Of a stretch of 64,000 nt of DNA, positions 21,021-62,815 are shown in pieces. The stretch's first letter is position 1. Every line of letters begins with the position of its first letter. Source of the stretch: Hygrocybe punicea. Lineage: Eukaryota; Basidiomycota; Agaricomycetes; Agaricales; Hygrophoraceae. A program made the position numbers and the translations under genes. A model generated the notes under the pieces. It was given only the letters and a program-made list of their open reading frames with translations. It was not told the DNA's origin and made no database searches. The DNA lies in the NCBI GenBank assembly GCA_963556145.1, contig OY744463.1, positions 992,001 through 1,056,000 of the forward strand. The letters run 5' to 3'.

Positions 21021-22241
21021 TTAATTACTACGCTTCTCCTTGCCCCGAGGCCTTTCGCGAATGACCATCTTGTTACTGTTCTTTGGTCCCTTCGGACCAG
21101 GTTTTCGTGTCCGTTTTCCTTTCGTATTCCACCCCCAGATAGAGACCGGATGCCTATTTGACTTTGACTTTCCTCGGCCACCACCATGAGGATGGTCGTT
21201 CCTAATTCAAAATCATTGAGCAAATAAGTCAGCCCAAAAAAACATCGAACCTTACGCATTCATCGCAACACCCCTGACGCTAGGTCTCCGGCCCAGCCAT
21301 CTACTTCTCCCAGCCTTGCCCAAACTCCGATTTTTCCACAATGGGTTGCTGACCTTGCCGATAGTAGCACAACAGTCTCGCAGCACTTTCCGCACTTCAC
21401 CACTCTGAAGTCGTATTTGTGTGTACCTCCTTCCTACGTCGTCGTGCGCGACGACCTGTCCGAAGGAGCCAGCCGAGCGAACAAGAATTCCAGGTCCTTG
21501 AGGCGACAAGGCTATGTTGTGGATGACAGTACCCGTAGGGATGAGTCGCAGTGGGAGTACGTTTCCTGGTTTAATGGTCATAGCGCGGAGGATACCTACC
21601 GCGAGAGACCCCGCAGACATTTGTGCCTCGTCCTGATTGCCACCTCTGTCACGGTCCGATGTCGAGTCGGCATATCCAGGAACATAACCTTCTGGAATAC
21701 CCTGCCTGAAGCTTTGTACGACGTCTCCCGCTCTCATTCCCTCACAAGCAATGATGTAACTCCATTTTCTTGTGCCTTCCGCATTCTCGTCTCTATTTCG
21801 TAGAAGGGCAATATGGGCTGAACGCCCAGGGTCGTACTCAATGCGTATGACATCGTGAGGACCTGGTTCATTCCGTCTGAAATCCACAAGTCGTAAACGG
21901 CGTCGGTGGCCGCCGCCACGGTGACGAACAGTGATGTGTCCGTGAGCATTACGACCACCCTTTTTGCGCAGGGCAACGGTGAGAAGGCGAACAGGGCGGC
22001 CCTCGTATATATGGGGGTTAAGAGGTCGGCGTAAATGACGAATGCCAGGTGATACGGGTTTATACGTTTTGAAAAGGGATGATGTGCGCGCCAGGGCAAC
22101 ATTTACATCCGAGACCGGTTTCTGCGAACTGGATGCCACTGTAGCATAGCTGTAAGCAGGGCCAAATTGCCTCGAGAATAGGGAGTATTGTACAGTCAGA
22201 CACGGTCGAAGCAGCGCAGCGCCGTGTCGGACTGAGAACAT
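21021..22241 (-). CDS. RML2: Mitochondrial ribosomal protein uL2m
   Basis: Large-subunit protein next to the peptidyl transferase centre of the mitochondrial ribosome. ATG at 22241 opens a presequence ([15 protein letters not shown]). The body shows uL2 hallmarks: [47 protein letters not shown], then the RNA-binding end [20 protein letters not shown], which contains the conserved His of bacterial L2. A 54-nt intron (21202-21255) lies inside MNANDHPHGG. The C-terminus is Lys/Arg-rich, TAA at 21021. A loop rich in Asp/Arg ([13 protein letters not shown]) sits where mitochondrial forms vary. Confidence 0.96.
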
Positions 22242-42662: not shown

Positions 42663-45233
42663 TCATGCACAACCACATGTTCTTCCACAAGTAGGGCACT
42701 TGACTGTTGGCAGACAGTCAGGATTGAAAAAATCTTCCCTCTTCTCTGTGGGATTGTCATTCCATGAGATGAGGTACTTGACAATGGTCAAGTGTGTGAA
42801 CTCTGTGCTCCATCCTCCCCACTCACAAATACGGCGGATAGGCCATCGGCGCTCTGATGACAGGTATTGGCAACCACCACGCTGGAAGGAATGAGTTCCA
42901 TATGGATAAGGGTCAACACCAACGTCAAGCAGATTGTTCTGGAACAATTCCAGGAATTGTTCTGAGGTCTGCTCGTGGGATACTAAGAAAGTATGCACAT
43001 GCCATAGGGCGGTTGGCCTCAGCAACACGGTCACCAGAAGAAATCTTGCAAAATATGTAACCGTCTGTGATGTTAGACTCCACCAACCACTCTGCAAGGG
43101 CACGGACTGGGCAGATATATGCCTCTGAGGCAGACAGAGCATGTAGCACAAATGGTTGAATCTCTGATAAAGGAGGTGAGTCACCAGCAGGTATCCTCCT
43201 ATCAGAAACAAATTCCCACCTCCAAATTGGTCAGTCTTCTGAAAGGGTATGAAGTGGCTTGGATTTGAAACATCAAGCTCAATGTCATGTGCTTGAATCT
43301 TCAACACTTCATCAAAGCGCAACAAGCATAAAAATGCAATGGTATAGGCCGCTTGCAGAAGACGATGAGTCCGATGTAGATGCAGGTTCTTGGGTGGCTT
43401 CGGAACAATATAAAGAAATAAAGATCCTAACCTAGGGGTGTCAGCGTAGAAGTGACAGTGGATAAGTCAGTGTCGGGAGTAGTAGTAAAAGTAGAAATGG
43501 AATGTAAAATGTAAGCCGCCATGTAAAACTAAACAAATAGCGACGAATCCAGCGATGAACGGAGTGAAAATGGACAAATAATAAAGAACCCGACGATGCT
43601 GATGATGTTGGGTACAGCAGGTCGGGTTGGGTCGGGTCAGAAACAATGAACGAATATACGGAAACAACGATAAAGACGATGAAGTGGACTATAAAAAGCT
43701 AAGGGTCTACATGGACGAGCATTTGAAGGGATTAAAAGGCGATTCTGACTAAAGGGAAATGGGGACTAAGGGTATCTCTTTTTGTACGGTTGTCGGGGAC
43801 CGTTTTTATAGTACATGTGTGTGTAGCTACTTTCAGACATGTCTACTTCAGCCGATAGATACTACAAAGAAAAACTGGAATGGGGATGTGGAAAGGGGGG
43901 TTGCAAAGCGACATAGACAGGTAAATGGAGGGGAAAACGAATATGCAAGGAAAAGATCTAGAAGTCCTACATATCTCCAAAAGGACAAGGGGATGCACAA
44001 ATAAAGTAAATCCGAAGTCGGGGATTGAGTCCGATGAGATCCATCTTCTAGCATTGGAACTCCGGGGCTTATGAGGCTGCTGGATTTGGTCCGAGAGCGG
44101 CTGTGACGAAGCGGCATACGTCGGGTCACGTCGGTCACGTCGGGTCACATCACGTCGGGTTATGTCGGGTGGCGTCGGGTTTGAATGCGAGTTGAACGGA
44201 GGCATTGGGTTTGTCCGGATTCATGATATATCGACAATACGGACTCAGAGGGACGTCGAGTCTCTACACCGACCACCACCCCAGGTGCCAACTGAGCCTT
44301 GTTGTTGTGTGTGAGAGCCAGGGGCATAGTCTTTAATAGCCCAGACATCAATCTGGTGATTGAACTTGTACAACTTCTTGAGCATTTCCTAAAACATGCA
44401 TGAGTAATCTTTCTGTGAAGATGTGGTGTGTTAACTTACAGAGGTGATAGCCTGTGCACTGGTGGAGGTTTCTCCTGAGTTAACCTTATTATTATCACAC
44501 AAGCTGGTCTCAACAACAAGATCATGAAGAGAGGCAATTAACATACTTTTCTTCTGTGAAGGCTGACCATGTAACTTGACATGACATTGAACACAGAGGG
44601 GTTTCCAAACATCACTCACTTACATGCCACGGTGTTGAACCAAGGCCATGGAGACGTCCAAACGCATAAGTTATTGCTGCTTGCATCTTCTGTGCATGTG
44701 AGTATGTGCCACGCTCAGCCATAGGTGGTCTTTTTGATCCATCCAGCAGTATCTCATCACACCTACCCAATTGCTCAGCTAATGTGCATCAAACTTGGTC
44801 GAAGTAGGCAAAATAACCATACTGATTCATGATCCAAGAAGCTATATGCCATGGGGCATCTTCGCTTGGCTTTGATGTGAAAAAAGGTTCACCTTCCTTG
44901 AGGAGTTTACTAGAAACAAGGAAATGCTCGCATTGTTTCATCAGCCTACATGCTTCAGTATAATCTTACTGAAAACAACATGTAAAACACTGCTCACCTC
45001 TGGTACTCACTGTCAGTCGCTTCAGTTACACCCTTGGAAGCCTGGAGAAGAGTTCCATGGACATCTGACATATGGATGTCGCCATCGTCGTCTTGCTGAG
45101 TGGTTTCGAGCAATGTTTGTTGCTCTCCTTCAAGATCATCGGTGACCTCTAGTTCTTCAGGCTTGTCTTGCTCCTCAACAGGGTGAACCACCTGGTAAAC
45201 ACCAGGAAACTGAGTTTTCGACCTTGTAAACAT
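42663..45233 (-). pseudogene. Fungal tyrosine recombinase (Crypton-like), interrupted
   Basis: The N-terminal part starts MFTRSKTQFPGVYQVVHPVE at 45233 and runs through LASWIMNQYG-like sequence, VWKPLCVQCHVKLHGQP and KKLYKFNHQIDVWAIKDYAP to TWGGGR near 44270. About 830 bp of unrelated sequence then intervenes. The catalytic part resumes with LLQAAYTIAFLCLLRFDEVL, PVRALAEWLVESNITDGYIF, EQFLELFQNNLLDVGVDPYP, GTHSFQRGGCQYLSSERRWP, WGGWSTEF and TIVKYLISW (nucleophile Tyr). Such genes normally read HSFRRGG; here the catalytic HxxR arginine is Gln. The Cys-rich end is KCPTCGRTCGCA. Both the insertion and the Gln argue that it is dead, although remaining parts are well kept. Confidence 0.75.
43439..44272. 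mobile_element. Insertion inside the recombinase gene (solo-LTR-like)
   Basis: Sequence with no relation to the flanking exons. It is bounded by TGTCAGCG at 43439 and CTCTACA at 44272, so it begins TG and ends CA as LTRs do. Inside are repeated TCGGGT/ACGTCGGGTC motifs (44110-44180). The end GAGTCTCTACA resembles GAGCCTCTACA found twice near 48.67 and 49.27 kb. No 5-bp target duplication is visible, so the class is uncertain. Confidence 0.4.
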
Positions 45234-50929: not shown

Positions 50930-51583
50930 TCTTTTTGAATATTGGAATGAGAAGCGATAGTCAGCTCTAAGAATTTTTGGACCGGAATATGGATGTGAAG
51001 GCTTAAATATGCAAAGACAAGAGTCAAAAGACGCACCAATCTGGGGTGACACATGCATCATACACGGTGAAAGCTGTTAGTGTCGCTGAATACTGCTTTG
51101 ATAGGCACACTGCATGCACTGCAAAAAAAAGCACATGTCTGCCTCTTGATAACGACATAAATGAGATCTTCAAATTGCGACTTGGCGAATGTACGAGCTA
51201 GTAGTATTTGTCACAACGTCTTCAGTGAAATTTTCAGTTTCCGCTTTGTACGATGTATTAGCTTCGTTTTTCTGGCCTGAATCAAAATATAAAGGTAAAG
51301 ACGCTCTGGCAATGTTTCACGTCAATGGGATCGGAGCAAATTGATCGCCACGTGTCCGTGCAGGCAGAAGTCGTGTGGTGTGTGCATGGTCGTCGTACAC
51401 GATTACGCCTTAGCGGAGCCCGGCCTCAGTTTGAAGCCCATCAAGAACTACATTTTCTTTCACAGCCATCGATATGGACCCACGCACCTTCCATGCCTGA
51501 GGGTTGAGGCGGCTCAGGCTGTGTCCCAAGTCGTTGATAAATCAAATCACTCGGTTTTTACTGATCACTAGTACACTGTCGAC
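50930..51583. other. Divergent upstream region
   Basis: About 650 bp between the CRAL-TRIO gene (minus) and the micro-exon gene (plus). A TATAAAGG lies at 51288. No coding feature supported. Confidence 0.4.
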
Positions 51584-54500
51584 ATGGCTTTCTTTGAAAG
51601 GGCTCATGGCGTAGAAGCCAACTACGGTACCTTCAATTCCATTGGCGGCGATCAGGTTATCACGCAATCCACTGGCGTACTTGCACATCTAAGAAGAGCT
51701 AATGGCAAGCTTCCAGGTCAATTCGAATGTTCTCATAGTCAATGGCCGCTGCAATGGACATGGCAATTCCAGTCTTCCCAATGTGAGTCTCTTTGTTGTG
51801 GGGCCACTATGGTGACTTACCGACATTGTAGGTAATCGAAGCCTGGCAAGTGAAGATCATCGACAGTCATGATACTTGGATTCCCAGACGGGGTAAATTC
51901 CGTTTCTGTAAGGCAGAATACACCCCACAGCAGGGAAGGATGATTTCTGTAATCGCGAAACAATACTCCAATGTAAAGGAGGAGGCAAGTAGCTATAATA
52001 GACAACATATTCTATCCGCTTATAGGGGAAATTTTAGGAATTCTTGCAAATTGCTAGAAAACATCATGTTTTGTGGTGTGTCCAGCATTGGTTTCCAATC
52101 ATTGACGGTGTCATTGATGCTATGACCTTTTCAAGGGACCCTCATGTGGCGGAAGTGGTGGGTATGATGACAAGCAGGACATGCCTCTTTTTCCACGGAT
52201 ATCCAAGTATGTAGTAACTCCAACAACCTAAGCTTGACCTACCTTTCCATCATCTGACATCCTTCTAGACTTCCGGCCTTCAATATCCATTGTGGACGGA
52301 ATACACAGAGAAGGCTTCCGCAACTTCTTTTTTCATTTGGTGGGTTCCGGTTTTTTCAATTGTGCAACGAATTTGACAACGTTTGTTGTAATTAGCGCGA
52401 CACCATTAAAGTCAGCTACGTGTAATATCTACCGAATCACATTCCGAGCTTGATGCCTAAATTGGCTGTTTCAGTCGATAGATGATTATGCACGGGAACA
52501 AAACATTACTATTGCTTGGAAGGCATGTCAGGCAAGTAGACTGGGTTTATAGTATTGCACAACGGGAAGACAATATGTTCTAGCCTGACTGGTTTTTACG
52601 CAATGGGGAGAAGTTGGTGTTAGTTCATTGGGACGAACAGGATCCGGTAATTACTAGTAATGCTTCTATGTGTTCGAAACCTTTTGATAATTTTTTTTTT
52701 CCTTTGGCAGAAAGTACGTCCGTCGTTACTGCCATGATGTTCGCCACTCATTGAATGCGCTGGACCCTGCCATTGTCAACAGGAGGTACGTGTTGCGACA
52801 TGTTGTCATGATCATTCCTGACATCTTCAACAGGAGGTATGTCTCCAATGGCATGTTGCAGATTCCTTTGCCACTCGCTGACTTGAACGCCCACTCGGCA
52901 ATCTTCAATAGGACGTATGTGCTTCGTGCCTATGACGGTGGCTGATCGCTGACTTCGTTGATATTCCATAGCTTGTATGTACCCTGTCGTGTCGTGATGG
53001 CCACCACACGCTGACCTCGTCTCACCCTGTGATCTTCAACAGAGTGTAAGTAATTCCATAGTCGTTGCCACACATTAACCTTGTAATCCTCAACAGGAAG
53101 TATGTGCCTTCCCGTGTTGTCGATACTTGCTAAACTCTTACCCTCGGATCTCTAATAGTTTGTACGTGCTCTGTCATGTTACCATGCTCCTCGTCGGCTG
53201 ACCCGCCACACCCTATTATATTCAATAGATAGTACGTGCCAAGTTGTATTCGCCCCTTGCTTATCTGACGGTATATTGTGTGATCTTGGCCAGTTTGTAT
53301 GTGCTCCATCTTGTTGTCATGCCCGTCACCGCTTGACCTCGCCGCGCCTTGCTATCGTTCAACAGACAGTGCGTGCTCCGTCTTACTACCATTCCTTCAC
53401 TGTCTTTGACTTGCTGCACCCTGTGATCTCCGACAGCTTGTATGTGCTCCGCCGTGTTGTCGATCCTGTCACCTTTCACTGACCTCGCCACGATCTCTAA
53501 AAGGATGTGCGTTCTCTGGCACGTTACTGCGGCGGTCATTGTTGCTGACCTCGCGACACTCTGTGATCACAGCTTGTACGTGCATCATGTTGCCATGACC
53601 ATTACTGCTCCTAACCCAGTGACACCTTACCCACCCCAACAGGAAGTGCGTGCTCCGCATGTTGCCACGACCAGCGTCACTCACTGACCCTGCCGGACAC
53701 TGCCACACCCAACAGTTTGTTCGTACTCTGTTGTGTGTTGCCATGACTATTGCCGCTCACACACCTTTTGATTCTCAACAGTTTGTACGTGCTGCATCGT
53801 GTTGTCTTCACTCTGCGCCACCGACTTCTCCACCCTGAAATCTTCAATAGGATGTATGTGTGCCATCGTGTTGCCTGGCTGCTCGCTCACCTTGCGGAAC
53901 TCTGCCATTATCAATAGCTGGTATGTACTCTGTTGTATTTTTGACATGACCGTTGCCGCTCACTCGCCCCCACTGTTCTTCGAATAGCTTGTACGTACTC
54001 CGTTGTGTTCTATGACCGTACACAAGCTCACCCCGCAGCTCTCCTGCTTTGTCTATAGGAAGTAGGTGCTTGCTGCCATGACTGTTGAGGCTGGCTGACC
54101 TTATCCACAGGATGTACGTGCTGTCATGTTGCCCCTGACAGTTGCCACTCGCTGACCCCGCCCATCCGGAACCTTACGACATTCACTAGGAAGTATGTGC
54201 TTTAACATGTTAATGTGACCGCCATCATTCGCTGAGATGGCCCATTGATCTTAAATAGAGAGTGCGTACTTAGTTGTATCGCAAAGACTGTGGCTGTTCC
54301 CTCACCCCACCACACTCTGTAACCTCAACAGCTCGTATGCGCCCCGTCATTCGCCATGATTGCTGCATGCTGACTTACAAATTACCGCGCTTGTGGATCT
54401 TCAACAGAGAGTACGGGCTCTATTTTGTTTCCGTTTCCTCGCTGCTTGCTGACCTTGTGGCTTTGTGGTCTTCAACAGATTGTATGTGTTCCATTGTGTT

Positions 54501-55772
54501 ATGACTATTGCCGCTCGCTGACCCCACTGTACCCTGCAATCTTCAAACAGCTTGTACGTACTTTGCCTTGTTGCTATGACTTCTTATTAACCCTGAGGTT
54601 GTGACAATAAATAGGATGTAAGTACTCTACTATATGACCATGACCATCACTGATAACCGACCTTGCTGACCTTGCTGACCAACAGGATGTATGTGTTCTG
54701 GTGTTGCCATGACTAGCACCGCTCGCTAACCTTGCGACAACCTTCGAACCCCTGTAGATTGTATACATGTTCTGTCACTCACGGTTATCACGGCTTGCTG
54801 ACCTTTTGTATGCTACAGGAAGTACATCCTCTGTTACGTTGCCCTGACCGTCAAAGTTGACCTTGATGCTCCTGGTAATCTTCAATAGGATGTGCGTGCT
54901 CTGTGGGTTTCCAAGACCGTAACCGTTTGCTGACATTGCTGGATATGATAATTGCGCTCAGTCCGTACGTCCCGTCCTCAATTCGTGTATTTCATTCTTC
55001 ATTTTATTTTTACCAGACTCTAATGGTATGATATCTCTTGGCTCTACAAGTTGGATCTCTCTACTCGTCTTCTGACTCTCATGTAGGCATTCAATGCTGG
55101 CCTTACTTTCATCGTTTGTAGTTTATGGTTATGTCTGCCATTTTCCAGGCTGACTCATTATCACTTTTTATTAGCGACGATTATTTGAAAAGTTTCGATC
55201 TGATTCAGATGGGGAGCTTGCGGGAAAGATTGAGGAGGTCATCGAAGATACGACCTACCCGACGGTAGGCAAGGCTTGTATTTGCAAATATGATTATATT
55301 GACAGGTTCCTTACTTCAGCACGCATTATCCGACACCCGTCTTCCTTCGCTCTCAACCTATGTTGTGGAAACGTCTGACAGTGTGGAACCGGATGAATCA
55401 GCCTCTCCAGAAACTATATCCCTCTCAGCGAGGAAATTTGAAAAAGCCCTTCCGGCAGGTGGCCAAATTGCTTTGTTGGATGCATCAGCACCACCCGTTG
55501 TAAGCAAAACTATCCTGTTCTTCCCAATAGACCTCACCCTCACAACCCCTGTGTGCTTCGTGATCACCCTTCAGAATTCCAACGTCCCAGTTCCACCTGC
55601 ACAGGCAGTTACACAGCGCGGTGGTTGGCTGCAAATTTTCGGAATTCTTGCGATAGTGGTTCGGGGAATACTGGCACAATGTCTTATTCTAATAATTCTT
55701 GTGTCCGCGGTTGCATTTGTCCTGATCGTTCATGTTACATCCGATTCATTTGACATGTTAGTTTTTGTATAA
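51584..55772 (+). CDS. Multi-exon gene containing a 34-unit three-nucleotide exon array
   Basis: Start MAFFERAHGVEANYGTFNSI at 51584, an N-terminal motif (aromatic, GG-F, GDQ) that I associate with NLR-like and related mushroom proteins. Exons: 51584-51655, 51717-51782, 51832-51984, 52086-52206, 52269-52339, 52396-52410, 52475-52531 and 52584-52646. All join in frame without a stop, ending WFLRNGEKLVLVHWDEQDP. Then come 34 triplets (separate entry), an exon of 9 nt (55017-55025, TLM), one of 27 nt (55087-55113) and one of 90 nt (55175-55264, RRLFEKFRSDSDGELAGKIE). The 3' end is uncertain: an open frame to 55772 has acidic then membrane-like segments (LQIFGILAIVVRGILAQCLI) if an intron with GC donor at 55269 is used. 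Introns 51985 and 52532 also start GCAAGTAG. Function unknown. Confidence 0.6.
52711..54964 (+). repeat. Array of intron-like units separated by exactly 3 nt
   Basis: Each unit runs GTRNGT...CTGAC...CAACAG and is followed by 3 nt before the next GT. Triplets with start positions: AAA 52711, GAG 52783, GAG 52834, GAC 52912, CTT 52972, AGT 53043, GAA 53097, TTT 53159, ATA 53229, TTT 53294, ACA 53366, CTT 53437, GAT 53504, CTT 53573, GAA 53643, TTT 53716, TTT 53782, GAT 53851, CTG 53918, CTT 53988, GAA 54059, GAT 54111, GAA 54190, AGA 54259, CTC 54332, AGA 54408, ATT 54479, CTT 54551, GAT 54615, GAT 54686, ATT 54758, GAA 54819, GAT 54889, TCC 54962. Spacers are 48-76 nt. Every GT and AG is intact although spacer sequence has diverged. 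About half the spacers hold an exact CTGAC branch site and most others a near match. Confidence 0.85.
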
Positions 55773-56690
55773 TCTATTCCCTAATCCCATTTGTCCATAT
55801 AAAAGATTCGTTTGAAGTAATGACTGCCTCACGATATACCCTGTCTGACAGCATTGCATAAGAGTACAGCTTGAGGCAGAGATGGGCAGAAATTTATAAA
55901 TATATACCCCCACACTGCTCAAGGGGCCGCCCAACAGTGCAAGCGGTTTTGCAAAGAGAACAGCGGTCCAAACCATATTGAAACAAGACAAACCGGTAAT
56001 CCAGACATTGGATACACCAATCATTGAGAAGGAAATTGACTAAAATGGTAAACAATGAAGGATGTTCCGAAGGTGTCAAGCTGGAATTCACCACCGAATG
56101 AATATAGTTAGCATCCCATGAGGGAGGAGATTTTACTGCCCTCATCCTGGTAATGTTGCAGGCAACGTTGCAAGTCATGGTGTGTGGCCCAGTGAAACTC
56201 ACCATGTGTGTTGATAACAAAATGTGTTCCGCATGCGTGAGAGGATCTCGATGGTGGTTGCAATGGGGAAAAGGCCCCCGCGCTGCTGTCATGGCAAACA
56301 GCCTCTGCCAGTAAGCTCGGAAGAGTTGAGCTGAGAAAGAAACTCCTTGTCAGAAATTATAAACCATGAGTATGACAATGCAACTGAACAGTCAACCGAG
56401 AGTTTCTCAGTATAGATTTTAATTTCCCTCCATCTAGAGAACTGTGGTTGAGCGCCTGCGCCAGTCGAGATCGGGTTCATGGGTGTGGTACAAGACAAAG
56501 GAGAGACACCTCTTCCACTTGAGGCCATCTGCGACAACGTTCCGGGAGACCGGTGATTTGTAAAGCGCGACTGCGTGTTACAGCTCAATTCATTAGGATC
56601 GGTCATTACGGGATCATTTCAGCAGAGCTGCGGTATTGCTTTCACTTGTAATGTTCATCCGACCGCGAGTCTTCTCCAAGGACAAGAAAT
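55773..56690. other. No gene assigned
   Basis: Two overlapping minus-strand open frames (56289-56606, 55894-56292) read partly like protein. The first has MTDPNELSCNTQSRF and the second is Cys/His-rich; a membrane-like stretch (NVWITGLSCFNMVWTAVLF) lies near 55990. Splicing could join them, but I recognise no family. Confidence 0.35.
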
Positions 56691-56691
56691 A

Positions 56692-57333
56692 TGACGCTCC
56701 ACGTGCACTTTTATTATTTGCGCGATAGAGGCTGCGCGATCGCGCGAATTGGAACTGCGCGGTTTCACAAAGTACACGGACTTTGTTTTTTTGGCATTGC
56801 TGTGCGTCTGTGGGGCCATTTGGGGAGAATAGTACATTTAATTTATTTCTACCTGTATACTTAGAGTGTTTTAGTCAACTATTAGCTATATTTCAGCAAG
56901 CTTTGTGGGCACAAAGCAGCCTCGGTGAGCATGACCGCTAATTTTGGATTTCCTATTTTGGGCAAGCTTCGTGATGTAGAGATTTGATTGCACGATCCGA
57001 TCATTGGCCAGGCCATCACGATGACAACTCATATCAAATTTGATATCACATGATTGTTGCAACCAAAACAGGCAGCTTGTTGATTTCTTGCTCGGAGTTA
57101 GAGTCTGCTTCGTATTGCACAAAGCTTGCTGAAATATAGCTAATAGTTGACTAAAACACTCTAAGTATACAGGTAGAAATAAATTAAATGTACTATTCTC
57201 CCCAAATGGCCCCACAGACGCACAGCAATGCCAAAAAAACAAAGTCTGTGTACCTTGTGAAACCGCGCGGTTCCAATTCGCGTGATCGCGCAGCCTCTAT
57301 CGCGCAAATAATAAAAGTGCACGTGGAGCGTCA
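56692..57333. mobile_element. TA-flanked foldback element (MITE-like)
   Basis: Inverted arms of about 217 bp (56691-56907 and 57118-57334) match nearly base for base around a 210-bp centre. The ends read TGACGCTCCACGTGC in both arms and TA lies on each side (56690-56691 and 57334-57335), as expected for Tc1/mariner-type MITEs. Each arm contains the same small open frame (APQTHSNAKKTKSVY), a mirror effect and not two genes. Confidence 0.8.
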
Positions 57334-58599: not shown

Positions 58600-60770
58600 T
58601 GCCGGTGTTGTCATACGAGGTGTGGGGGGTTGGATCATGTCATGGGTGGTCGAAATCAGCGGCTGGAAGGTGCAGGAACCACCGAAAGAACTTGGGGGAC
58701 AAATTGATGGCACGGGTGATTGGGAAGCGCCAGCCTGTTGTTTGTGGGCTAAACGAGGTGCGCAGGGTTGTACCATGCCATGGGTGGTCAAAATCGGCAG
58801 GTGGAAGGTGCAGGAACTGCCGAAAAAACTTAGCAGGGGGTGGGGGACAAATTGATGGTGCACGCGATTGGGAAGCCCCAGCCTGTCATTTTCGGGCCAT
58901 ATGAGGTGCGGGTGATTGTACCATGCCGTGGCTGGTCAAAATCGGCGGGTGGAAGGTGCAGGAACTGCCCAAAAAAAACTTGGGGGGGTGAGGGGGACAA
59001 TATGATGGCGTGGGTGATTGGGTAGCCCCAGCCTGTCGTTTGCAGGCTAAACGAGGTGCGGGGGATTGTGCCATGCCGTGGGTGGTCGAAATCGGCAGGT
59101 GGAACTGCCGAAAAAACTTGGGAGGGGGGTGGGGGACAAATTAATGGCGCAGGCGATTGGGAAGCCCCAACCTGTCATTTGCGGGCTAAACGAGGTGCGC
59201 AGGGTTGTACCATGTCGTGGGTGGTCGAAATCAGCAGGTGGAAGGTGCAGGAACCACCGAAAAAACTTGGGGGGGGGGTGGGGGACAAATTGATGGCGTG
59301 GGCGATTGGGAAGCTCCAACCTGTCGTTTTCGGGCTAAACGAGGTGCGGGGGGTTGGATCATGTTGTGGGTGGTCGAAATCGGCAGGTGGAAGCACCAGG
59401 AACCGCCAAAGAAAACTTGGAGGGGTGGATGGGCAAAGTGATGGCGCGGGTGGCTGGGCAGCCCCGGGCTGTCGTTTTCACGCCGAACGAGGTGCAGGGG
59501 CCTGTGCCATGCCATGGGTGGTCGAAATTGGCAGGTGGAAGCAGCAGGAACGAATGCAAAAAAGGTGGTTGAGGTTGGGGGGCAAAGTGACGGCGCGAGT
59601 GATTTGGCAGCGCCGGGCTGTCATTTTCAGGCCGAAGGAGGAGTGGGGGGTTGTACCATGCAGTGGGTGGTCAAAATCGGCGGGTGGAAACAGCAGGAAC
59701 CGCCGAAAGAAATTTGGTGGTGGGTGGGGTGGACAACGTGATGGCGTGGGCGATTGGGTAGCCCCAGCCTGTCGATTTCCGGCCGAACGAGGTGCGGGGG
59801 GTTGTGCCATGTCGTGGGTGGTCGAAATCGGCCAGTGGAAGGAGCAGGAACCACCAAAAAAAAATTGGGGGCGGGGGTGTGGGACACATTGATGGTGCAC
59901 GCGATTGGGAGGCCCCAGCCTGTCGTTTTCGGGCCAAGCGAGGTGCGGGGGCTTGAAAGATGCCATGGATGGTTGAAATCGGTGGGTGGAAGGTGCAGGA
60001 ATCACCAAAAAAAAACTTGGGGGGGTGAGGGGGACAATATGATGGCGTGGGTTATTGGGTAGCCCCAGACTGTCGTTTTCGGCCCATACGAGGTGCAGGG
60101 GATTGTAACATGTCGTGGGTGGTCGAAATCGGCGGGTGGAAGGTGCAGGAACCGCCGAAAACAACTGGGGGCTGCTGTGGGGGACAATGTGATGACGCGG
60201 GCGATTTGGAAGCCCCAGCCAGTCGATTTCCGGCCAAACGAGGTGCGGGGCGTTGTGCCATCTCGTGGGTGGTAGAAATCGTCGGGTGGAAGGTGCAGGA
60301 ACCGCCGAAAACAACTTGGGGGTGCTGGGGGGGACAATGTGATGGCATGGGCGATTGGGCAGCCCCAGCCTGTCGTTTTCGAGCCAAACGAGATGCGGGG
60401 GATTAAGAGGTGCTATGGGCAGTCGAAATCGCTAAGGGGAAGCAGCAGGAACCGCCCAAAAAAACTTGGAGGAGGTGGGGGGGGCAAAGTGATGGCGCGC
60501 GCGATTGGCTGGCACCGGCCTATCATTTTGATGTGAAACGAGGTGCGGGGGGTTCAAAGATGCCATGTGTGCTCGATATCAGTGGGAGGCAGCAGCAGGA
60601 ACCGCCGAACAAAGCTTGGAGGAGGTGGGGGGGTGCAAAGTGAAGGGACGCGCGATTGGGCAGCCCCAGCCAGAAGTTATCAGTCCAAACGAGGTGTGGC
60701 ATGCAGTGGGCAGTCGAAAGTGACGGGTGGAGACAACAGAAGCCGCCCGATGAACTGGGGAAGTAAATCA
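58600..60770. repeat. About 15 tandem units of ~150 bp
   Basis: Units share CGAGGTGCGGGGGATTGTGCC, CATGTCGTGGGTGGTCGAAAT, GGAAGGTGCAGGAACC and GGGAAGCCCCAGCCTGTCG. The CATGNNGTGGG element recurs at about 59072, 59211, 59360, 59508, 59658, 59808, 59960 and 60109, giving spacings of 139-152 bp. Because the period is near a multiple of three, long meaningless open frames appear on both strands. Confidence 0.9.
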
Positions 60771-61684: not shown

Positions 61685-62815
61685 TAGTGTTGCCATAGTT
61701 CGGTTCCGAACCTAGCCGAACCCGGTTCAAACCCCGAACCGAACCCTAAGTTCGGTCTAAGTTCAGCCAAGTGCTGAACCGGACCGCGGGTTCAGTTCCG
61801 GGTTTCGAGGCCTGCCAGATTTCCTGAACGGCTCCAAACCGCGTTCAAACCGCGAACACGGATATTTTTAAGGTATTGATTTCATTTGTTTTTCGTATTT
61901 CTTTACTTACTATTTCGTGTTAAACGGCATCATGTGACCGGCCGTGACCTTTCACGCAACACAGCAACTTCAACGCGGGTTGAACACAACACAAATTGTG
62001 TTGTGTTCAAAGGTAAGTTTCCATTTTTTTCTTAATTTTACTAATGTTATTTGCGGCAGGCAACTCGACTGCGACCACATCGCGACCACATTGGCACAAG
62101 ATGAATGCCAACGCCAACGCAATGCCAACGGACGCGGGGCAGCCGCAACACCACCACCACCACCACCACCACCAGCGGCGGCAATGGCAACAGCAAAGGC
62201 AACGGCAACCAGGCAACGACAACGGCAACGGCCAGCAGCAGCAGCAACAGCGGAACCAGCAGCGCCGGCAGCAACGGCAGCAGCAGCAGCAGCAGCGGCA
62301 GCGGCAACAGCCAAAGCCATCCAACATCACCACCAGCGGCGGCAACAACAACGGCAACCACAACTATGACGGCCAGCAGCAGCAGCAATGCCGGCAGCAG
62401 CAGCAACAGCAACAGCAGCAACGGCGGCAGCAGCAACGGCCACGACAGCAGCAGCAGCAGTGGCAGCAGCAACGGCGACAGCAGCAGCAGCAGCGCCGGC
62501 AGCGGCAGCAATGGCAGCAGTGACAGCGGCGGCAGCAGCAGCGCCGGACGGCTCCCCCACAGCCCAACTACCTCGCGAAGTGTAGCACCGTATCGATTAA
62601 TACGTGCCTGCCATTCGCGAGGAGAACGGAGCTCATGGGGTGAGCCCACCTCAGTCCGGGGTTCAGACCGCGTCTGAACCCAGACCGAACGCGGAGAAAC
62701 GGTTCAATGCCGTCCGGGTCCAGGTTTGGCCATGCGCCAAACCGGACCCGAAGTTCAGTTCGTGGTTCCGCTAAAAAGGGTCGGAACCGGACCGAACTGA
62801 ACTTCGGCAACACTA
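61685..62815. mobile_element. Non-autonomous hAT-type element C
   Basis: Left end TAGTGTTGCCATAGTTCGG and right end with reverse complement TAGTGTTGCCGAAGTTCAG. Target duplication CCCTCAGC at 61677-61684 and 62816-62823. Subterminal CCGAAC/GTTCGG motifs are like those of element A. The interior is dominated by GCAGCAA/CAG repeats. There is no transposase. It is 1131 bp, the second insertion in the TA-flanked element. Confidence 0.88.
62145..62555. repeat. CAG/CAA-rich trinucleotide repeat
   Basis: Almost uninterrupted CAG, CAA, CGG and CAC triplets within element C. They read as poly-Gln, poly-Ser or poly-Ala according to frame and are not evidence for a gene. Confidence 0.9.

Follow-up and report, generated by a model that had tools for sequence, protein, structure and literature searches.

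Very short exons are regarded as difficult to splice, since the splicing machinery on one side collides with that on the other. The closest described systems are the micro-exon genes (MEGs) of schistosomes and tapeworms, in which consecutive very short exons come in multiples of three nucleotides and skipping keeps the frame (PMC7653826, PMC10526429). Here we describe a locus in the basidiomycete Hygrocybe punicea, at positions 52647-55016 of a window of 64,000 nucleotides (assembly GCA_963556145.1, contig OY744463.1, positions 992,001 to 1,056,000 of the forward strand), which is probably a protein-coding stretch with 34 consecutive codons, each a 3-nt exon of its own, split by 33 related introns. 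Coordinates are those of the window unless stated otherwise, and published systems are described as excerpts of the cited articles present them.

MEG exons measure 3-81 bp (also given as 6-81 bp), mostly 15 bp, with 10 to 20 short exons and introns of 0.1-5 kb (PMC10526429). A structural rule for tapeworm MEGs asks for at least seven exons, at least half of them micro-exons (shorter than 70 nt and divisible by three), with a run of at least four (PMC7653826); the predicted structure, with its run of 34 exons of 3 nt, would be classed as a MEG under this rule. The array shares with MEGs the runs of tiny exons, the lengths divisible by three and the in-frame skipping. Unlike in MEGs, its exons are all 3 nt long and its introns are short (48-76 nt) and mutually related, and we found no sequence relation between the two; the protein models of 216 and 412 amino acids matched no protein at E <= 10. 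As a class, flatworm MEGs are further marked by secreted proteins of one superfamily and by alternative splicing of their micro-exons.

Splicing of exons as small as 1-3 nt is documented for Arabidopsis APC11 (1 nt), Fusarium CYP621A (1 nt) and Drosophila homothorax (3 bp), each with one ultra-small exon per gene as against 34 in series here (PMC4674806, PMC12940212, PMC7392893). A potato gene has a 9-nt exon whose neighbouring introns are spliced sequentially, beginning with the second (PMC4674806). P450 genes of Phanerochaete chrysosporium combine introns of 45-55 bp with exons of 2-10 codons, the shortest being 6 bp (PMC1184071), and so share small introns and micro-exons with our locus, but the excerpts describe no series of one-codon exons. 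Human RPS24 has three neighbouring micro-exons between exons 4 and 6, and the term '3-bp exon' is used in both articles (PMC12686416, PMC11162997); the likeness lies in the adjacency of micro-exons, the difference in there being only three, alternatively spliced. As for sources of new introns, fungal introner-like elements, stwintrons and tandem intron duplication all supply intron copies (PMC4457414, PMC8469720), and other intron duplication, within-gene tandem duplication included, accounts for less than 1% of single intron gains in one fungus (PMC4457414/PMC8469720). An earlier note on this DNA knew of no described gene with so many minimal exons in series. In excerpts of the open-licence literature on micro-exons, smallest exons, introners and tandem intron arrays, one-codon exons were likewise nowhere described in a long series, and the probable series of 34 exons here is far longer than any found in that literature.

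Thirty-four triplets between splice signals

The array comprises 34 consecutive triplets on the plus strand (52711..54964), each lying exactly 3 nt long between an AG and a GT. They start with AAA at 52711 and end with TCC at 54962; units 1-12 begin at 52711, 52783, 52834, 52912, 52972, 53043, 53097, 53159, 53229, 53294, 53366 and 53437, units 13-24 at 53504, 53573, 53643, 53716, 53782, 53851, 53918, 53988, 54059, 54111, 54190 and 54259, and units 25-34 at 54332, 54408, 54479, 54551, 54615, 54686, 54758, 54819, 54889 and 54962. An automatic count of the chain came to 35, owing to a chance start included at 52614 and a different path at one unit; unit 29 is the GAT at 54615. Between the triplets lie 33 introns of 48-76 nt (mean 65.2), so that intron length varies while triplet length stays constant at 3 nt. 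With one extra intron on each side, of 64 nt upstream (52647..52710) and 52 nt downstream (54965..55016, with a GTACGT donor), the region spans about 2.37 kb.

Such a chain is not expected by chance. The longest run of AG-NNN-GT in 1000 dinucleotide-preserving shuffles of the region was 4 (mean 1.62), and elsewhere in the window the longest chance chains were 4 upstream and 2 downstream on the plus strand and 3 on the minus strand. All 34 triplets are in phase 0 and spell the peptide KEEDLSEFIFTLDLEFFDLLEDERLRILDDIEDS; 14 are GAN, seven CTN, four TTT and three ATN, and none is a stop. Our recount reproduced what the earlier note had reported of the number of units, their exact spacing, the range of spacer lengths and the classes of triplets.

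Splice signals are kept while introns diverge

The motif GTRNGT fits 29 of the 34 donors, the other five being GTTCGT, GTATGC, GTACGG, GTATAC and GTACAT, and 34 of 35 acceptors are YAG, the remaining one AAG. Among the 33 introns between triplets, GT and AG are kept in every one, G at +5 in 31 and T at +6 in 30; columns +7 to +19 have pairwise identities of 0.31-0.64. A branch-like YTNAY occurs in all 33 (1000 shuffles: mean 19.5, maximum 28), CTNAY in 28 (mean 11.6, maximum 20) and CTGAC itself in 18 (mean 1.4, maximum 6).

If units are treated as independent, which is a simplification, the chance that all 33 introns keep both GT and AG is 10^-26.3, 10^-16.7 or 10^-10.6 at a neutral identity of 0.445, 0.58 or 0.70, respectively. 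Retention of a single intron would shift the frame in 21 of 33 cases and introduce an in-frame stop in another nine, breaking the frame in 30 of 33; if the region is translated, this is reason enough for constraint on the splice sites. Judged from these patterns, the earlier proposal that splicing of the array introns is under selection is well supported: no GT or AG is lost, and the 3-nt spacing is constant despite a mean identity of 58%. We considered a conserved RNA structure in the units as well and rejected it. Folding of the units was no better than that of shuffles (mean z +0.35), RNAalifold on a gappy alignment of the 33 units was uninformative, finding no structure there or in a column-shuffled control, and Rfam gave no match at E <= 1 in 51000-57000.

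The triplets look like codons

Bases 1 and 2 of the triplets are coupled (mutual information 1.07 against 0.22 expected; none of 10000 permutations reached 1.07): a first G is followed by A in all 14 cases, and a first C by T in all seven. Among the intron columns, the seven pairs closest to the donor signal (+7/+8 to +13/+14) showed no coupling. The coupling could be due in part to splicing, since GTN would be a competing donor beside the AG; that leaves the absence of GCN and GGN unexplained. At the level of residues, Asp, Glu, Leu, Phe and Ile make up 28 of 34 (p = 5e-8; a null with position-specific composition gives 3e-6). The codon-usage score of the triplets, with the genes of the window taken as conserved serving as reference, was matched by 16 of 10000 random sets of intron triplets and by 158 of 10000 position-specific shuffles. 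Taken on their composition, the triplets look like codons. The peptide KEEDLSEFIFTLDLEFFDLLEDERLRILDDIEDS would have a net charge of -11 with hydrophobic residues interspersed, a composition that we take to be typical of acidic activation domains.

One intron family, most likely amplified in place

All 33 units can be aligned to a single consensus, and their mean pairwise identity is 0.58, a figure somewhat inflated by the gapped alignment. With splice letters removed, intron cores score 0.20 against -0.12 when shuffled, and 58% of pairs lie more than 2 sd above the shuffled value. When a profile was made from the units and run over the window, all 33 introns matched and no other sequence did at E <= 10; the two introns flanking the array thus went unmatched. 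As the profile was made from these same introns, only the absence of matches elsewhere is independent evidence. A two-unit consensus searched against the 92.2-Mb genome gave 19 matches, all of them in the array or in a fragment of it described below (counts are lower bounds). Since no members of the family turned up outside this locus and the fragment, one intron was most likely amplified in place, and in this the array differs from dispersed introner-like elements. The earlier note had recognised neither the kinship of all the introns and their restriction to this locus and its decayed fragment, nor the lack of clear common ancestry among the triplets.

Unlike the introns, the triplets give no clear sign of common ancestry. 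Pairwise identities of their three columns are 0.27, 0.36 and 0.36, compared with 0.28 when their own letters are paired at random, and triplet likeness is uncorrelated with intron likeness, whether for the preceding triplet (r 0.04, p 0.22) or the following one (r -0.01, p 0.60). The power of this test is low, as two halves of the introns correlate only weakly with each other (r 0.09, p 0.11), and we gave up reading the duplication history from the triplets. Two histories would fit: duplication of triplets and introns together, with the triplets then diverging faster, or the copying of introns into a coding stretch that was already there. We lean towards duplication of intron and codon together, with the residues selected afterwards, because we know of no mechanism for intron insertion at exact 3-nt intervals.

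A decayed fragment of the array

Units 8-31 have a second copy on the same contig, 316 kb from the array (contig positions 724947-728196, (-)). This fragment has no flanking exons, is 95-96% identical to the array and is interrupted by an insertion of about 1.6 kb, whose ends resemble inverted repeats and which by inspection looks like a DNA transposon. Between fragment and window copy the triplets differ at 0 of 72 sites and the introns at 49 of 1344; about 2.6 triplet differences would be expected, so the difference is not decisive. Splice letters differ at 2 of 48 positions for AG, 3 of 24 for G at +5 and 0 of 48 for GT, and all five changed letters are canonical in the window copy and non-canonical in the fragment. 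This asymmetry is expected anyway from the base bias of the differences, 44 of 57 being G/C in the window and A/T in the fragment and nine the opposite, as in the decay of methylated repeats or of repeats subject to repeat-induced point mutation (RIP). Near the fragment there are also three matches to a dispersed repeat of about 0.9 kb that occurs in the window at 43372-44271 (two full-length at about 87% identity, one partial).

The predicted gene and its surroundings

Upstream of the array we predict an exon at 52584..52646 (+), ending ...VHWDEQDP in phase 0, with a tentative 5' border. Downstream, all on the plus strand and in phase 0, follow predicted exons of 9 nt (55017..55025, TLM), 27 nt (55087..55113, AFNAGLTFI), 90 nt (55175..55264, RRLFEKFRSDSDGELAGKIEEVIEDTTYPT) and 180 nt (55320..55499), and then a last exon of 198 nt including the stop (55575..55772), with long hydrophobic stretches. 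By inspection, these stretches are likely membrane segments and the product a membrane protein. For the three small downstream exons, sizes and frame agree with the earlier note. Its phase-0 upstream exon ending DEQDP holds as a prediction; the border on its 5' side is uncertain and its frame is not the best-scoring of the three. Further upstream, a candidate exon at 52475-52534 scores best in the modelled frame and another at 52269-52379 has no frame preference; both are tentative, as is anything upstream. No paralogues of the array flanks were found.

The array gene is an orphan in the protein database searched, and we could not identify it by homology, neither a protein match nor a Pfam family being available. 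As a control, the same database was searched with the ribosomal L2 protein of the window, for which 7645 of 7999 scored sequences passed as relatives at E <= 0.001. That protein is likely a mitochondrial L2, encoded in one open frame at 21252-22241 (-), and its best named matches are from Artomyces, Dentipellis and Auriscalpium, genera of the Russulales, which places the genome among Agaricomycetes. Beyond the gene, a 150-bp unit is repeated in tandem about 13.5 times at 58693-60696, where both strands have long open frames, and the window also contains CAC- and CAG-rich simple repeats, in which one open frame would encode long Gln runs (62149-62542).

Discussion

How could such a gene be spliced? 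Fungal introns of this size are generally recognised across the intron, as units. We propose that amplification in place of one intron would have produced the array, and that every intron copy would have to be removed, since a retained copy would disrupt the frame in nearly all cases. The spliceosome would take the introns out singly, and neighbouring introns would be mutually exclusive in time, as a 3-nt exon has no room for two spliceosomes. After each removal the upstream exon would be of full length, with its end 3 nt ahead of the next donor, so that the whole would be a chain of ordinary splicing events requiring no exotic machinery. The product would carry the acidic-hydrophobic segment, and because the triplets are 3 nt long and in phase 0, any skipped exon would keep the frame and a range of segment lengths is predicted. 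We judge about evenly poised the fuller scenario in which one intron multiplied in place until there were 34 one-codon exons, the smallest size that keeps the frame, the array persisted for long enough that the introns diverged to 58% with every splice signal kept, and skips remove single residues to give a ladder of acidic segments. The earlier note had gone further, in that ordered or recursive removal was taken to be obligatory. By our reasoning, geometry only rules out simultaneous processing of neighbours; an obligatory order is stronger than the facts. A recursive splice site joins AG directly to GT, as a zero-length exon, and here 3 nt intervene in 34 of 34 cases. Nor do the introns resemble stwintrons, in which an intron interrupts a splice element of an outer intron, as each of the 33 has its own GT, AG and branch-like motif.

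Several observations weigh against reading the triplets as codons of a translated gene. Three intron column pairs between +16 and +19 are also coupled, more weakly (p 0.005-0.017), triplets at one of 32 other fixed offsets in the unit outscore the exon triplets in codon usage, and a stop-free run of 34 triplets has a chance of 0.22 anyway. The 34-residue peptide has no significant helical amphipathicity (p 0.19 at 100 degrees), and we dropped the idea of an amphipathic helix. The modelled frame is the best of three in only five of seven flanking exons, failing in 52584-52646 and in the 9-nt exon. Neither the 216-aa nor the 412-aa model has a homologue at E <= 10 in a database of 5.8 billion proteins (419 and 5410 candidates), and no Pfam family exceeded its cut-off in the protein models tried. 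The fragment, which we had considered as proof of constraint on the window copy, provides no independent proof, its differences being so strongly biased.

Other explanations make different use of the same facts. The internal sites might be stepping stones by which the region is removed piecewise, with the triplets mostly skipped and the mRNA joining 52646 to 55017 with few codons or none. Skipping would always be in frame, and stepwise removal of large introns, or recursive splicing, is mentioned in an excerpt of PMC4674806; the 3 nt that always intervene between AG and GT speak against it, as do the coupled, codon-like bases of the triplets, which skipping does not predict, and we regard it as unlikely. 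Were the array instead a non-functional minisatellite, in which an intron and 3 nt were duplicated and drift with their internal sites unused, it would be natural that the units are related tandem copies, that the predicted protein has no detected homologue and that splice letters are altered in the fragment. In the window copy, however, the splice letters and the spacing are not as variable as the rest of the unit: no intron has lost its GT or AG and the spacing is unchanged at this level of divergence, which makes drift very improbable in our view.

The array might also have arisen from repeated insertion of an introner-like element, at one codon border after another, into a coding sequence that existed before, the codons never having been copies of one another. 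This would account for the little common ancestry in the triplet columns compared with the intron columns, and for triplet likeness being independent of intron likeness, a test that has little power to speak for it. Against it, all 19 genome matches lie at the locus or its fragment, where counts are lower bounds, and insertion exactly every 3 nt, 34 times over, has no mechanism known to us; we consider this the least probable of the explanations. A coding stretch in which each of the 34 triplets is an exon is what we prefer.

If expressed, the locus would offer a direct test of the order of splicing intron by intron, of the limit of spliceosome fidelity, as the array would call for 35 consecutive correct events, and of the way in which introns multiply inside a gene. 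Ordinary annotation pipelines would miss a gene of this kind. If the proposal is true, the array would be an in-frame tuner, in which each skipped exon means one residue fewer and one gene would give rise to a ladder of acidic segments.

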